A DNA stretch of 47,515 nt, from NCBI GenBank assembly GCA_009380075.1, contig WHSO01000020.1:1-47515 (forward strand), read 5' to 3'. This DNA is from Alphaproteobacteria bacterium. GTDB taxonomy: Bacteria > Pseudomonadota > Alphaproteobacteria > SMXQ01. Below, piece after piece: positions 3,170-12,160 of this stretch. The number at the start of each line of letters is the position of its first letter. The stretch's first letter is position 1. The notes under the pieces are model-generated. The model searched no databases. It was not told the origin of the DNA and was given only the letters and a program-made list of their open reading frames with translations. Both the position numbers and the translations under genes were made by a program.

Positions 3170-4381
3170 ATGACGATGCGTCTCGTGAGGGAACGGCCGC
3201 CGTTGCTGCCCGAAGTGTCGCCTCAGGTGAGTCTGCATTTCCTGGACGATGACGGGCTCCTGTTTGATGCAGCGGAGCGGCGGCTCTATGCCCTCAACAC
3301 GGTTGCGACCTTCATCTGGTGCTGTCTTGAGGAAGCTTTCGGGCGTGACGAGACCCTGGAGCGGCTTGAGCGCAGCTTCGGCTTCTCCCTTGCCGAGGCG
3401 GACACGCACCTCGCCGGCATCCTCGCCGAGTGGCGTGAGCTTGGATTATTGGCAGAATCGGCGCCCAAGAGTGAGACCGCATCGGCCAATTCCCCGCCCC
3501 AAGGGATACCGCGCTATGTGAACAACGTGTCGGGGACGGGTCCGGTCTACCGCCTGCTCGACCTGCACTTCTCAGTTCGGGGTTCGCCGACCGCACTGGT
3601 GGATGATCTCGTGCCGCTCCTTGAACCGCTGCGGGTGGCGCCGCTTGCGGACGAAGTCCTGCTGCTCGAGCTCGTCGAAGGCGAGCAGGGGCTCGCCGTA
3701 ATAAGCGGCCAACGTACACTCGCCCGCTGCGCCCGGCGCGACGAACTCGTTCCCTTGGTCAAAGGCAGCCTGGTGCAACTCGCACTCGAGCGGAGCGGCG
3801 ACTTACTCGGGCTTCATGCAGCGAGCGCCAGTCTTGGCGGCCGGTGCGTGCTCCTACCCGGGGTCTCCGGTAGTGGCAAGAGTACGCTGGCCGGTGCACT
3901 CGCCGCGCGCGGCATACCCCTCCTCGGCGACGACAATGTCGTCCTCGCCGCCGAGACGCTTGAAGCGCGCCCCATCCCCTTCGGCATCTGCCTCAAGCAG
4001 GATGGATGGGACCTGCATCGTGCCGCGTTCCCTTTTCTCGACACATTGTCCGTGTACCGCCGTTTCGACGGCAAAAGGCTGCGCTACATCATACCGCCCG
4101 GCGACGGGGTACTGGTCGAGCCGGACCATCGCGAGCCGGTCGGCGCGATCGTCTTTCCCTGCCGCACAGGGCAGGAAACGGCCGAAATCGTCCCCATCCC
4201 CCGGACGCAGGCGCTTGCCCGTCTCTTCAGCGGTTGCTGTCCGCTCGGCCCCGCCCTCGACCACGACAAGGTGGCACGCCTCGTCGCCTGGACTCGGGGC
4301 GTTTACTGCGGCGAGTTGCACTTCGGTCCGCTCGACGCGGCGGTAGATGCGCTGCTGAGGCTACGGTCATGTTTCCCTTGA
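3170..4381 (+). CDS. PqqD-like domain fused to HPr-kinase-related kinase
   Basis: The product has 403 residues. Residues 20-100 look like a PqqD-type domain (LLFDAAERRLYALN, then a helical stretch ending WRELGLLAE), the fold that presents peptides to RiPP-modifying enzymes. After a linker, the C-terminal half resembles the catalytic core of HPr kinase/phosphorylase: P-loop GVSGSGKS at 231-238 followed by GIPLLGDDNVVL. The usual HprK N-terminal domain and PTS genes are absent, so HPr is an unlikely substrate. Related PqqD plus HprK-like pairs (called HPr-rel-A systems in family databases) are predicted to phosphorylate an unknown peptide or small molecule; here both parts are one polypeptide. 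The start follows only a weak GGGAT; an ATG two codons later is possible. It overlaps the next gene by 13 bp. Confidence 0.8.
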   Translation: MTMRLVRERPPLLPEVSPQVSLHFLDDDGLLFDAAERRLYALNTVATFIWCCLEEAFGRDETLERLERSFGFSLAEADTHLAGILAEWRELGLLAESAPKSETASANSPPQGIPRYVNNVSGTGPVYRLLDLHFSVRGSPTALVDDLVPLLEPLRVAPLADEVLLLELVEGEQGLAVISGQRTLARCARRDELVPLVKGSLVQLALERSGDLLGLHAASASLGGRCVLLPGVSGSGKSTLAGALAARGIPLLGDDNVVLAAETLEARPIPFGICLKQDGWDLHRAAFPFLDTLSVYRRFDGKRLRYIIPPGDGVLVEPDHREPVGAIVFPCRTGQETAEIVPIPRTQALARLFSGCCPLGPALDHDKVARLVAWTRGVYCGELHFGPLDAAVDALLRLRSCFP

Positions 4382-5478
4382 GCTCGGCCCAGCGCGCGGT
4401 CGTCGACGTGCTGCGGCCGAATGCCGGAGGAGCAGACGCCGCGTGGCGGCAGACGAGGATTGACTGGCACAAGGCGCTTTCCTATGCGAATGCGCATTAT
4501 CTCGTGCCAGCGCTCTATTCGTCGCTCAGAAAGGCCGGCTACCTTACTGATTTGCCGCCCGATGTCCGCGACTATCTCGCGCTGCTCCATCGCAGCAACA
4601 GCGTGCGGAACGGGCGTCTGGCGGCACAGGCGCGAGAACTCGTGACCGGACTCAACGAGGGCGGCATCAGGCCCATGCTGCTGAAGGGCGGGCTGGCGCT
4701 GGTCGACAATCATTACGATGATCCGGCCGAGCGCATGCTGAGCGACCTCGATGTTCTGATACCCGTCGGTAGCATAGAGTCGGCGCTGCGATCACTAGAC
4801 GCCCTAGGCTACGCCGTCCTCACTCTCTCTCTGCCCGGCGATCATGCCTATGCCAATTTCGGGCGCGACGGCGATGCGGGGGCTGTCGACCTCCATGTCG
4901 AACTGATCGACGCCCACTATCTGCTCGGCGCGCGCGAGGTCTGGCAGCGGGCGCGACCGGTTTCCTGGGAGGGCGCGCACCTATTCCTTCCGTCCGCGAC
5001 GGATGCCCTCCTCCATAACCTTCTGCATGCACAAGTGCATTATCTTGGGGGCTACTACCGGGGCGAGATAGAGCTGCGGCAGCTCTACGACTTTGTGGCG
5101 ATCGCTCGCCATGGCGGCGGCGACGTTGACTGGCGCTTCATCACGGAACGACTCACCTTGCATCGCCTCCTTATACCGTTGCAGTCTTACGTGTTGGCGG
5201 CAAACTGTCTTTTCGGGCTACCGTGGCCGTTCGAACAGAGGCCGCGTTGGCGCGCGCGCATGCATTTCCGCCGCTGCCTCATCCAGCAGCGCCTGCCGCG
5301 ACTGGCACAGGCAAATGTTCCTTGGGCCAATCTTCGCAACGATTTTGCCCGTCACCGCATGGACAGACTCTACGAGCCTCGGCACCCGCTCGTCCTGCGA
5401 TGGCTGCAACACGCGCTGGGAACCCTGCAAAAAGGTGGCCTCCGCCTCGCGGTCGACCGCCTTATTCGCACGCGCTGA
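4369..5478 (+). CDS. Nucleotidyltransferase-like protein (NTP_transf_5 type)
   Basis: The product has 369 residues and starts 13 bp inside the kinase gene, so the two are almost certainly translated together. Residues 104-111 (LLKGGLAL) and 125-130 (SDLDVL) match the KG and DxD signature of the uncharacterised nucleotidyltransferase family PF14907; the two Asp would bind metal. A long helical C-terminal region follows. Family members often sit beside HprK-like and PqqD-like genes. The activity (NMP or sugar transfer to a peptide, lipid or small molecule) is unknown. Codon use is less GC-biased than in neighbouring core genes. Confidence 0.75.
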   Translation: MFPLSSAQRAVVDVLRPNAGGADAAWRQTRIDWHKALSYANAHYLVPALYSSLRKAGYLTDLPPDVRDYLALLHRSNSVRNGRLAAQARELVTGLNEGGIRPMLLKGGLALVDNHYDDPAERMLSDLDVLIPVGSIESALRSLDALGYAVLTLSLPGDHAYANFGRDGDAGAVDLHVELIDAHYLLGAREVWQRARPVSWEGAHLFLPSATDALLHNLLHAQVHYLGGYYRGEIELRQLYDFVAIARHGGGDVDWRFITERLTLHRLLIPLQSYVLAANCLFGLPWPFEQRPRWRARMHFRRCLIQQRLPRLAQANVPWANLRNDFARHRMDRLYEPRHPLVLRWLQHALGTLQKGGLRLAVDRLIRTR

Positions 5479-5530
5479 GATGCCTGCCTATAACCGCCAT
5501 GCGAGGGGAAGAAGGACAGACCGGTGATGA

Positions 5531-5566
5531 CCGGAGAAAGTCCAGCAAAGCGCCGGCTTTCCCCGG
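5531..5566. terminator. Possible bidirectional terminator hairpin
   Basis: CCGGAGAAAG at 5531-5540 pairs with CTTTCCCCGG at 5557-5566, with one mismatch in ten and a 16-nt loop. It lies between the convergent nucleotidyltransferase gene and the small peptide gene. There is no clear T-run on either side, so the call rests on position and pairing only. Confidence 0.35.
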
Positions 5567-5589
5567 TTCATCAAGCCATAAAGCTTATA

Positions 5590-5835
5590 TTAACGCACTT
5601 CGTCGGCGGACTTTTGGGGGGCGTTCGGCGAAGAGTTGCTACCGGAATTGCCCGGCACGCCGTCCCCGCCACCATTGCCGAAGCCATTGTTGCTGGCCAT
5701 GGCGTAGTTTCGCTTCGCGTCGGCCAGCATCAGCGCCATCGCCGGTGGTGTCGCTACGGCAAACTTACCGCAGGCTAAGAGAAACCGTCGCCGAGCCTCG
5801 ACGACCTCGTCATTTGTTTCCGGTTTAAGAGGCAT
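5590..5835 (-). CDS. Small RR/CGKFA/TPPA peptide with Gly/Asn-rich tail (candidate substrate)
   Basis: The product has 81 residues. The ATG at 5835 has a near-perfect ribosome binding site (AGGAGGAG) directly upstream. Residues 1-14 are polar and acidic, RRRFLL at 15-20 resembles a twin-arginine motif, CGKFA is at 22-26, and a short hydrophobic stretch with TPPAM reaches about residue 39. The rest is disordered and Gly/Asn/Ser-rich (NNGFGNGGGDGVPGNSG at 49-65). I recall similar small unnamed alphaproteobacterial proteins with RR-FL-CG-FA-TPPA but no assigned function. The hydrophobic part is short for a membrane segment. It faces the kinase/nucleotidyltransferase pair convergently, 111 bp away, so it is a candidate substrate; this is inference. 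Confidence 0.65.
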   Translation of the reverse strand: MPLKPETNDEVVEARRRFLLACGKFAVATPPAMALMLADAKRNYAMASNNGFGNGGGDGVPGNSGSNSSPNAPQKSADEVR

Positions 5836-6062
5836 ATTCTCCTCCTCTTTTTGCAGTAATTGCTCCCGTCGCCTATTTAAAATTTTACCAAACATAATCT
5901 CGCATAAGCGTGATCATCCTGTGTCTTTCGGGGACAGTCCGGGAAACCAAGAAGTCCCTGAAAAGAAGTCTCTTTTAGTAGACGCGGCGCAGCAGGCAAA
6001 AACCGGCAGCCCGGGCCGGAGCCGATAACATAGCCGGGTAGTGAGTTACGGAGTGAGGCTGC

Positions 6063-8937: not shown

Positions 8938-10371
8938 ATGAGCATTGTCGATCATGCCGCATGGACACGGCGCGGCTTCCTCACGGGCATGGGCACCGCC
9001 GTCCTGCTGGCAGGGCTGCCGGGCGGCACGGGTCCGACGGCGGCGGCCACGCGGGACTTCCGGCTTCGGGCCGGCGTGTCGAAGACGCGCCTTCTTCCCG
9101 AGCCCGGCGCCGAGACGGAGGTGTGGAGCTACAACGGCCGCGTTCCCGGCCCGGCCCTTCGCGTGCGGCAGGGCGAGCGCGTTCGCGTGGCGGTGGCGAA
9201 CGGCCTGGCCGAGGAAACGACCGTCCATTGGCACGGGCTGCGCCTTCCCAACCGCATGGACGGCGTTCCCCACCTGACCCAGAAACCGATCGCTCCGGGA
9301 GAAAACTTCGTTTACGAGTTCGATGCCCCCGACGCGGGGACCTTCTGGTATCACCCCCATCAGCGCAGCTTCGAGCAGGTCGGGCGCGGACTCTACGGCC
9401 CGCTGATCGTGGAGGAGCGCGAGCCGCCCGCCGTCGATCGCGACCTGACGTGGGTGCTCGACGACTGGCGCCTCCTTCCCTCCGCCCAGATCAGCGACGA
9501 CTTCGGCCATTTCCACGACGTCAGCCACAGCGGCCGCCTCGGCAACATCGCGACGATCAACGGGCGCGTTCCCGAGACCTTCGCGGTGCGGGCGGGGGAA
9601 CGCATCCGCCTGCGTCTCATCAACGCGGCCAACGCCCGCATCTTCGGGCTGGAGTTCGCGGAACACCGGCCCTGGATCATCGCCTTCGACGGCCAGCCCG
9701 TGGAGCCGCATGAGCCCGAAGGCGGTCGCATCGTCCTCGGCCCCGCCATGCGGGTGGATATCGTCCTCGACATGACCGGGCCTCCGGGAGGGCGCTTCGG
9801 CGTCACCGACTCCTTCTACCGCGGGATGGGCTACCGTCTGGTCGAGATGGTCTACGCCGATACGGCGCTCCGGCCACGGCCGCCCGATGGCCCCATCGCC
9901 CTGCCGTCGAACCCGCTGGCCGAACCCGACATCGCCGGCGCCAAGCGGCACGAGATCATCTTCGGCGGCGGCATGATGGGGATGATGCAAGGCGCCCGTG
10001 TCGACGGGAAATGGACCGATATCCGCACGATGGCGCGCCAGGGACTCCTATGGGCGATCAACGGCGTGGCGGCAGCCGGCCACGTGCTCGAGCCCTTGGC
10101 CGCACTCAGGCGCGGCAGCTCGCACGTCCTCGCCATGACCAACGATACCGCCTGGCACCACCCGATCCATCTGCACGGGCATTCGTTCCGCGTTCTCAGC
10201 CGCAACGGCGTACCCACCCGCCGCCGCGAGTGGCAGGATACGGTGCTCATGAACCCACGCGAGAGGGTCGATATCGCTTTTGTCGCCGACAACCCCGGCG
10301 ACTGGATGTTCCACTGCCATGTCCTCGAACACCAGGCCGCCGGGATGACGGGCGTCATCCGGGTCGCCTGA
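8938..10371 (+). CDS. Tat-exported multicopper oxidase (CueO/CopA-like)
   Basis: The product has 477 residues and starts with a twin-arginine signal (TRRGFLTGMG at 10-19), so it is exported folded. Three cupredoxin domains are visible. The copper ligands are HWHG at 97-100, HPH at 139-141, HLHGH, and HCHVLEHQAAGM near the C-terminus, giving both type 1 and trinuclear sites. Such enzymes oxidise Cu(I) or other substrates with O2. A Gly/Met stretch (GGGMMGMMQG) precedes the last domain, a lesser version of the Met-rich inserts of CueO. AGGA lies about 8 nt upstream of the ATG. Neighbours support copper handling. Confidence 0.92.
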   Translation: MSIVDHAAWTRRGFLTGMGTAVLLAGLPGGTGPTAAATRDFRLRAGVSKTRLLPEPGAETEVWSYNGRVPGPALRVRQGERVRVAVANGLAEETTVHWHGLRLPNRMDGVPHLTQKPIAPGENFVYEFDAPDAGTFWYHPHQRSFEQVGRGLYGPLIVEEREPPAVDRDLTWVLDDWRLLPSAQISDDFGHFHDVSHSGRLGNIATINGRVPETFAVRAGERIRLRLINAANARIFGLEFAEHRPWIIAFDGQPVEPHEPEGGRIVLGPAMRVDIVLDMTGPPGGRFGVTDSFYRGMGYRLVEMVYADTALRPRPPDGPIALPSNPLAEPDIAGAKRHEIIFGGGMMGMMQGARVDGKWTDIRTMARQGLLWAINGVAAAGHVLEPLAALRRGSSHVLAMTNDTAWHHPIHLHGHSFRVLSRNGVPTRRREWQDTVLMNPRERVDIAFVADNPGDWMFHCHVLEHQAAGMTGVIRVA

Positions 10372-10389
10372 ACAGAAGGAGTGATCGAT

Positions 10390-10830
10390 ATGAGGAAAAT
10401 TTTCGCTGTTCTCACCATTGCCATGATGCTGATCGGTTCAAACGTGACGGTCGCCGACGAGCCTTCCCGGCATGCCACGCTCTACCGGAATCCCGAGTGC
10501 GGCTGCTGCGAAGCCTACGCGGAATACCTCCGCAAGAACGGCTTCAGCGTGACCGTGAAGCTGACCCACAGCCTCCCGCTGATCAAGCGCCAGCATAACG
10601 TGCAGCGTGAACTCGAAGGCTGCCACACGACGCTGGTCGGCGGCTACGTCGTGGAAGGGCACGTCCCCGTCGGGACGATCAACCGGCTTCTTTCGGAGCG
10701 TCCCGCAATCAGGGGAATTTCCCTCCCTGGCATGCCGGAGGGATCGCCCGGCATGAGCGGACCGAAGCGCGAGCCCTTCACGATCTACGAAATTACCGAC
10801 GGTTCGCCCCGAGTTTACGCGGTCGAATGA
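10390..10830 (+). CDS. DUF411 metal-binding exported protein
   Basis: The product has 146 residues. The ATG at 10390 is preferred because AAGGAG lies 8 nt upstream; a GTG at 10381 would sit on that site. After a signal peptide (MRKIFAVLTIAMMLIGS) the thioredoxin-like DUF411 domain begins with LYRNPECGCCEAY, whose CxCC motif is the family's metal-binding signature. GCHTTLVGGYVVEGHVP follows with further ligands. DUF411 proteins are commonly found with copper-resistance genes and are thought to bind copper in the periplasm. It shares an ATGA overlap with the cytochrome gene. Confidence 0.88.
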   Translation: MRKIFAVLTIAMMLIGSNVTVADEPSRHATLYRNPECGCCEAYAEYLRKNGFSVTVKLTHSLPLIKRQHNVQRELEGCHTTLVGGYVVEGHVPVGTINRLLSERPAIRGISLPGMPEGSPGMSGPKREPFTIYEITDGSPRVYAVE

Positions 10831-11324
10831 AGAGCCCCGCCCAAAAGCGTCCGACGGGTCGCGCATATCTCTTGATTCTTGGCAGCGTCTTGATCGTCAC
10901 GGCGGCCATCGTCACATGGATAATGTGGCCGAGGGGACCGACCGGCCGCGCCGATCCCGACGACGCCGGGCAGGTCGCCCGTGGCGGCATGGTTTACCGA
11001 CAGTATTGCGCGAGCTGCCACGGCGCAAAACTCGAGGGCCAGCCCGAATGGCGCATCCGCAAGCCGGACGGGAAGCTTCCCGCGCCGCCGCACGATGAAA
11101 CCGGCCACACGTGGCATCACCCGGATGGGGATCTCTTTCTCCTGACCAGGCACGGCCTGCGGCCGCCTCTGGCGCCCAACGGCTACAAGAGCGATATGCC
11201 GGCGTTCGAGGGCACCCTCGCCGATGAGGACATCTGGGCAGTGCTGGCCTTCATCAAGAATTCCTGGCCGCCCAGGATCCGGGCCCTCCAGCGCGCCCGC
11301 GACGAAGCGGCGCGACGGCGATGA
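10827..11324 (+). CDS. Membrane-anchored c-type cytochrome
   Basis: The product has 165 residues. An N-terminal helix (YLLILGSVLIVTAAIVTWIMW) is not followed by a clear cleavage site and probably anchors it to the inner membrane. The single-heme domain has CASCH and a likely Met ligand in KSDMPAF. It is encoded within the copper cluster and translationally coupled to the DUF411 gene (ATGA). It may pass electrons to or from the multicopper oxidase or an oxidase; this is inference from position. Confidence 0.88.
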   Translation: MKSPAQKRPTGRAYLLILGSVLIVTAAIVTWIMWPRGPTGRADPDDAGQVARGGMVYRQYCASCHGAKLEGQPEWRIRKPDGKLPAPPHDETGHTWHHPDGDLFLLTRHGLRPPLAPNGYKSDMPAFEGTLADEDIWAVLAFIKNSWPPRIRALQRARDEAARRR

Positions 11325-11416
11325 CGGGACTCCGGCACATGAAGCAGTGGCTGGGGACGACCATACGCACGGTGAAGAATCCGGTGCTGGAAAACTGGAA
11401 CAGCGGAGATCAGATC

Positions 11417-12160
11417 ATGACGCTATCGACACGTGACAAGAATCCGCCCCTGCGGGCGACGGGAATGCGGCGAACGGCGCGGATGCTGTTTGCCGTCCTT
11501 GCGCTCTCGGTTTTTCCAAGCCCGTCGTTCGCGCACCACCCAGGCGAGAATCTCGACACCCTGCTGGGCAGCAAGGAAAAGTACTTCCAGGCCATCGACA
11601 GGGCGGCGCCCGATTTCGGGCTGCGAAATGCCGACGGCGGAGCGGTCGCGCTCGCCGACTTCCGGGACAAGATCGTGGTGTTGAATTTCATCTATGCCAA
11701 ATGTCCCGACGTTTGCCCTCTCCACGCGGAAAAGATCGCCGATGTCCAGGGCATGATCAACGCCACGCCCATGCGGGACGTCGTGCAGTTCATCACCGTC
11801 ACCACCGACCCCGGGAGCGATACACCCGACGTGCTGAAGACCTACGGACCGACACATGGCCTGGAACCGTCGAACTGGATGTTCCTGACGATCGGCCCGG
11901 AGCTGCGCGAGGACGCGACGAGGAAACTGGCGGAGGCCTATGGTCACAAGTTCGTCAAATCCAGGGATGGTTATCAGACTCACGGGGTGGTCACGCATAT
12001 CATCGACCGGGGCGGTCGATGGGCGGCGAATTTTCACGGCCTGCGTTTCGCCTCCGTTAACATGGTCGTTTACATCAACGGTTTGACGAATGAGACCGGG
12101 AGCTCCAGTGCGGGGGATGACGGAACCTTCTGGGACCGCGTAAGGAGATTTTTCCGGTAA
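11417..12160 (+). CDS. SCO1/SenC-type copper chaperone
   Basis: From the ATG at 11417 the product has 247 residues. That start has GGAG 8 nt upstream and leads quickly to a signal peptide ending PSFAHH. An ATG at 11321 overlaps the cytochrome stop and would add 32 unlikely residues. The thioredoxin-like domain carries CPDVC and the later His in GVVTHII, the copper site of SCO1 proteins that deliver copper to the CuA centre of cytochrome oxidase or act as thiol reductants. It closes the copper cluster. Confidence 0.88.
   Translation: MTLSTRDKNPPLRATGMRRTARMLFAVLALSVFPSPSFAHHPGENLDTLLGSKEKYFQAIDRAAPDFGLRNADGGAVALADFRDKIVVLNFIYAKCPDVCPLHAEKIADVQGMINATPMRDVVQFITVTTDPGSDTPDVLKTYGPTHGLEPSNWMFLTIGPELREDATRKLAEAYGHKFVKSRDGYQTHGVVTHIIDRGGRWAANFHGLRFASVNMVVYINGLTNETGSSSAGDDGTFWDRVRRFFR

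Follow-up and report, generated by a model that had tools for sequence, protein, structure and literature searches.

The window analysed here is a 47,515-nucleotide stretch of an alphaproteobacterial contig. It contains a gene for a kinase fusion, a gene for an NTP_transf_5 protein and, convergent with both, a small peptide gene; their coordinates and those of their features are collected in Table 1.

Table 1 Features of the kinase, NTP_transf_5 and peptide genes in the window.
Feature	Position	Strand	Basis
RRE/PqqD-HprK-like kinase fusion, 403 aa	3170..4381	+	Pfam/NCBIfam matches, AlphaFold2 model, Foldseek
PqqD/RRE domain, aa 25-94, beta3-alpha3 fold	3242..3451	+	TIGR04353, PF05402, 5v1u_A superposition
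HprK-like kinase domain, aa 208-397	3791..4360	+	TIGR04352, residue conservation, Foldseek
NTP_transf_5 (PF14907) protein, 369 aa	4369..5478	+	PF14907 match, AlphaFold2 model
Precursor-like peptide gene, 81 aa, convergent with the enzyme genes, stop codon included	5590..5835	-	
Conserved leader segment, aa 14-37, ARRRFLLACGKFAVATPPAMALML, with Tat-like RRxFL motif	5725..5796	-	
Gly/Asn/Ser-rich tail, aa 48-81, from conserved Ser48 after the AxA-like site	5593..5694	-	putative cleavage site and candidate acceptor
Shine-Dalgarno sequence AGGAGGAG of the peptide gene	5839..5846	-	sequence upstream of ATG

The kinase fusion matches the relevant domain families below their cut-offs. PF05402 (PqqD) is matched over aa 31-94 with E 1.2e-4 and 22.8 bits, just under the cut-off of 23.4; TIGR04353 (PqqD_rel_X) with E 0.0012 and 19.7 bits against a cut-off of 35 bits; and TIGR04352 (HprK_rel_A) over aa 208-397 with E 1.3e-16 and 60.5 bits, below its equivalog cut-off of 200 bits. 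An AlphaFold2 model made from homologue alignments (pLDDT 86.8) gives residues 20-91 the beta3-alpha3 fold of an RRE, with an HprK/PEPCK-like domain behind it. In Foldseek comparisons, the RRE part superposes on 5v1u, a structure of the lasso RRE TbiB1 together with its leader (TMt 0.85-0.90, rmsd ~1.2 Å; for 5v1u_A, TMt 0.90 over 82 columns), and the remainder resembles HprK/P and PEP carboxykinase. The structure model thus confirms both domain calls at the level of predicted fold. His216, P-loop Lys237, Asp254, Lys276, Arg298 and Arg305 are unchanged across nine kinase homologues; judged by this conservation, the HprK-type catalytic His, P-loop Lys and Asp are intact in the window kinase. 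The presence of an RRE domain in the same chain implies a peptide as the substrate.

The NTP_transf_5 gene starts 13 bases within the kinase gene, and the two are therefore probably translated jointly. Its product matches PF14907 with E 3.8e-43 and 148.3 bits, above the gathering cut-off of 31.2 bits, and its KG (106-107) and DxD (126-128) motifs are unchanged in eight homologues. The AlphaFold2 model, again from homologue alignments (pLDDT 83.4), resembles the nucleotidyltransferase folds of ANT(2''), TglT and FKRP at fold level only. For both enzyme models these are likenesses of predicted folds, none of which proves a reaction.

The stop codon of the peptide gene lies 111 bases from that of the NTP_transf_5 gene, and its ATG is preceded by a strong ribosome-binding site, AGAGGAGGAGAAT. 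The peptide contains RRRFLLACGKFA, TPPA and a Gly/Asn/Ser tail. Compared with its homologue in genome G195 it shows a dN of 0.22 and a dS of 1.54, and dN is below dS in 10/10 pairs. By this codon comparison the gene is under purifying selection and is a real gene, which rules out an artefact of the reading frame. The gene arrangement described in an earlier note on this DNA was thus borne out: a PqqD domain fused to an HprK-like kinase (family matches and structure model), a translational overlap with an NTP_transf_5 gene (13 bases, and the PF14907 match) and an 81-residue peptide behind a ribosome binding site (a strong site, and dN/dS well below 1).

RiPP precursors typically join a conserved leader to a variable tail, and at times occur as tandem copies. 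The close members of the family, 20 in all and compared without gaps, never vary at RR, FL, G, A or the second Pro of TPP, and each has a Ser directly after its AxA-like site. Many tails share NNGxGNGxxDGxPG; those of L005 and L007 are Gly/His-rich instead, and those of the diverged G677 and G679 peptides are short and contain Cys. Features of a Tat-type signal are present in the window peptide, namely RRRFL at aa 15-19, a hydrophobic stretch and AMA at aa 45-47, and the Tat-signal model TIGR01409 gave no match to it with E up to 1. The YxxPxL motif found in lasso leaders is missing from the window leader (FAVATPPAMALML). NCBIfam, searched with these peptides, has no family for them.

The simplest alternative would make the window kinase the HPr kinase/phosphorylase of the organism, or a spare copy of it, acting in PTS regulation. 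It does have the catalytic fold and P-loop motif of HprK/P. The statement of the earlier note that PTS genes are absent holds within the window and fails genome-wide: contig C74 carries a short HprK of the canonical type, which scores over the Pfam cut-off, together with RapZ-like and EIIA-man genes (the RapZ name being given from sequence and position). This canonical hprK removes the alternative, and on its account the window kinase was rejected as the PTS enzyme that acts on HPr. Against PF07475 the window kinase reaches only 21 bits; it also bears a fused RRE and sits in another genomic context, and we regard a role in PTS regulation as extremely improbable. A scan for promoters and terminators gave no more matches than in shuffled sequences, and neither an Rfam family nor a tRNA was found when the window was scanned for them. 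Genes for a multicopper oxidase, a DUF411 protein, a cytochrome c and a SCO1/SenC protein run together at 8938-12160, in what looks like a copper-handling operon.

The earlier note had also tied the peptide to the two enzymes as their substrate, and its occurrence near PqqD-HprK and NTP_transf_5 loci was compared with that expected by chance. The window kinase alone was used to find full-length relatives, which are L005, L006, L007, G195, G097, G089 and one G241 copy. A homologue of the window peptide lies beside the enzymes in four of these seven (L005, L007, G195 and G097), and in the last three the peptide gene is convergent with the enzyme genes, as it is in the window. A profile made from the first five peptides was then run over 385 genomes of the window's class, with strong matches in nine. 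Among the peptides it found adjoining kinases are those of G355 and G377 and a tandem G097 copy, none of which had been used in building it. The fused kinase is present in seven of the nine peptide-bearing genomes and in 10/385 overall (Fisher p 2e-11), and co-occurrence persists when the training genomes are removed (p 2e-5); both values treat the genomes as independent, though they are related.

Ten further fused-kinase loci from a phylum-wide kinase search served as a held-out set. The earlier leader HMM matches a peptide at most 1 kb from the enzymes in six of them (G582, G566, G538, G626, G677 and G679). A diverged RR-leader peptide, recognised by a regular expression and by eye, brings in three more (G420, G609 and G536), for a total of 9/10; at the remaining locus, G718, no peptide was found. 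We also applied an automatic rule that accepts an ORF of at most 240 aa within 1.5 kb of the kinase if it has an RR motif and an uncharged hydrophobic stretch with Pro. Such an ORF is present at 18/20 held-out kinase loci, against 31% expected from the far parts of the loci (binomial p ~8e-8), the rule being loose enough that a few of the 18, such as L136 and L147, are probably chance. Small genes with RR leaders, in three leader types, recur as neighbours of the kinase, while the other genes nearby vary between loci, and NTP_transf_5 adjoins the kinase in nearly all fused loci examined. The peptide is thus far commoner near these loci than chance would have it, and the conclusion that it belongs to the kinase and NTP_transf_5 enzymes is well supported.

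The proposed substrate link is supported by this linkage, with the reservation that some copies of the peptide are distant from any kinase, so that the independent scatter which the earlier note named as counting against the link is seen in part. Two such copies were found in G389, others in G131 and G368 and on Sinorhizobium and Bradyrhizobium plasmids. The plasmid copies, recovered with a type-1 peptide as query, have no enzymes nearby, and a plasmid search with the window kinase gave only partial matches of ~30% identity. In G123, whose genome is 100% complete, neither enzyme was detected at the thresholds used. These orphans may indicate that the peptide has a role that needs no modification, or that it is modified in trans. 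The orphan type-1 peptides of G389:C8 and G123:C21 (L044 and L047), from one genus, share downstream neighbour genes, have no kinase near them and retain the full NNGxGNGGxDG tail.

Conversely, no recognised peptide lies beside five fused kinases: those of L006, G089 (on a short contig), G368 and G718, and a G241 copy with a degenerate P-loop. In this first G241 copy (L016 7081-9279; G241:C1:265080-267278), NTP_transf_5, PqqD and HprK parts form a single open frame of ~730 aa; it has no recognisable P-loop (GSSLSDSL) and may be a pseudokinase. A similar NTP-kinase fusion suspected in L006 from a long open frame was rejected, as its upstream portion lies across a second gene that is read in another frame. 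At L005 5854-7162, the PqqD and HprK parts occupy two successive open frames instead of one, the fusion being either split or broken by a sequencing or assembly error.

Both kinds of exception bear on a second alternative, in which the peptide goes along with the cassette as a surface or structural component exported by Tat, and the enzymes act on, say, a polysaccharide or a larger secreted protein. Peptides without enzymes would fit it, as would the fused kinase and NTP_transf_5 of G368, which adjoin polysaccharide-type genes with no peptide alongside. However, it leaves the RRE domain without the peptide substrate that such a domain implies, and RR-leader small genes of three leader types recur beside kinases while other neighbours differ by locus. 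We consider this alternative unlikely.

Precedent for the peptide as substrate comes from lasso peptide clusters with both a kinase and an N gene, pseudomycoidin psm and Bradymonas bsf; in paeninodin pade, the kinase is present without the N gene. Like the window, the kinase and N clusters combine an HprK-like kinase, a leader-recognising RRE, a nucleotidyltransferase-like N protein and an adjacent small precursor gene (PMC10368454; PMC9266682). In Bradymonas, the HprK-like kinase BsfK phosphorylates its precursor, an activity that the RRE BsfB1 greatly boosts (PMC10368454). For pseudomycoidin, the report describes phosphorylation of the C-terminal Ser of the precursor by PsmK, and hexosylation of the phospho-Ser for which PsmN, annotated as a nucleotidyltransferase, is required (PMC9266682). 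In the window, by contrast, the RRE is fused to the kinase, and the peptide combines a signal-like RR leader with an AxA-like site in place of a lasso core. Neither a leader peptidase B2 nor a cyclase C gene was found among the flanking genes scanned, roughly 1-12 kb, which rules out a lasso cluster at this locus. The window cassette would work like the kinase and N arm of lasso pathways, yet the tests made of lasso membership place it outside them.

With a probability of roughly 0.6, we read the locus as a RiPP-like cassette that decorates a peptide and has no lasso cyclase, with the 81-aa peptide as its precursor. The computed genes, domains, active-site residues, conserved peptide family and recurrent linkage are the basis from which we infer each chemical step, the order of the steps, the acceptor residue and export. 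The N-terminal half of the precursor would act both as a Tat-type signal and as a leader bound by the kinase-fused RRE. The kinase would phosphorylate a Ser (or Thr) in the Gly/Asn/Ser tail, with Ser48 as the foremost candidate. Onto the phosphorylated residue, the NTP_transf_5 protein would then add a further group, either sugar or nucleotide, as in the kinase and N lasso clusters, and the modified peptide would be exported, probably via Tat, and cut near AxA. Since RRE and kinase share one chain and the second enzyme is kept, the reading with the best support is phosphorylation and then capping. By analogy with the two lasso systems, phosphorylation, and perhaps nucleotidylation, of the peptide is plausible (PMC10368454; PMC9266682). 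For the second enzyme, the same analogy makes sugar transfer onto phospho-Ser plausible, and at least as well precedented as nucleotidylation.

A narrower variant would confine the modification to the kinase, with the peptide phosphorylated and the NTP_transf_5 protein modifying something else or working without the kinase. NTP_transf_5 was found in 27/32 kinase-bearing genomes tested, sometimes next to the kinase and sometimes far from it; in several genomes the two are tens of kb apart or on separate contigs. Its likeness to ANT(2''), TglT and FKRP, being one of fold, would also suit this variant. The 13-base overlap in the window and the adjacency in nearly all fused loci examined argue against it, as does the single NTP_transf_5-PqqD-HprK chain of the first G241 copy, degenerate though its P-loop is. 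We hold the kinase-only variant to be improbable.

Outside the lasso clusters, the same domain types make up the HPr-rel-A system of NCBIfam (TIGR04352 kinase, TIGR04353 PqqD), whose stand-alone relatives also occur with NTP_transf_5 and RR-leader small proteins; in the window's class, too, stand-alone HprK-like kinases adjoin RR-leader small proteins. The window kinase differs in being one fused chain that scores far below both equivalog cut-offs, which rules out membership of either equivalog. The literature searched contained no paper on the function of the HPr-rel-A system or on PF14907. ScmC and ScmD of the SynChlorMet cassette likewise pair an HprK-like with a PqqD-like protein (weak matches), whereas the flanking window genes scanned include no radical SAM gene.

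HprK-like kinases matching the profile are present in 122/398 sampled genomes of the phylum. At other HprK-like loci we observed a type-2 leader, RRxALxRLGL...YxxPx[LIV], followed by tails rich in Ser, Gly, Pro and Arg (SRPSRPSGPSG, for example); its Y and P agree with the YxxPxL motif of lasso leaders. This leader co-occurs with the kinase in 23/34 genomes, a figure that is partly circular because kinase neighbourhoods had supplied the profile. Leaving out the training genomes weakens the association but does not abolish it (6/17, p 0.008). The recurrence of the same trio in many distantly related bacteria points to a widespread way of decorating secreted peptides. More tentatively, and with somewhat less than even confidence, we suggest an uncharacterised RiPP-like class across Proteobacteria. 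Its precursors, with RR (Tat-type) leaders, would be recognised by an RRE that either shares a chain with an HprK-like kinase or works alongside it. They would be phosphorylated, and then capped by NTP_transf_5 before export, with one recognition logic for at least three leader types and hypervariable tails. If true, such a class would give the HPr-rel-A system a function and a substrate. The short adjacent peptide with its conserved leader is a concrete candidate substrate for HprK-like kinases, and confirmation would take precursor phosphorylation with capping outside the lasso peptides and connect RRE recognition with Tat-type export.

Several other loci carry small genes of related appearance. 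At L054 8430-9488 (G089:C61), three small genes in tandem encode an RR leader of related sequence (ERRAFLHKAAKVGVVTP) followed by Cys/acidic tails, and one of them weakly resembles TIGR04117, a Cys-Xaa-Xaa-Xaa repeat radical SAM target. Outside the window's class, the peptides at L142 8097-8279 and L143 7515-7724 adjoin fused kinases and have very short Cys-containing tails (APRSCRGNGTKKCT and PPRSGCNRNGKGCR). At L118 7310-7681, an RR-leader small protein that adjoins an HprK-like kinase weakly matches HxsA4, a His-Xaa-Ser repeat protein.
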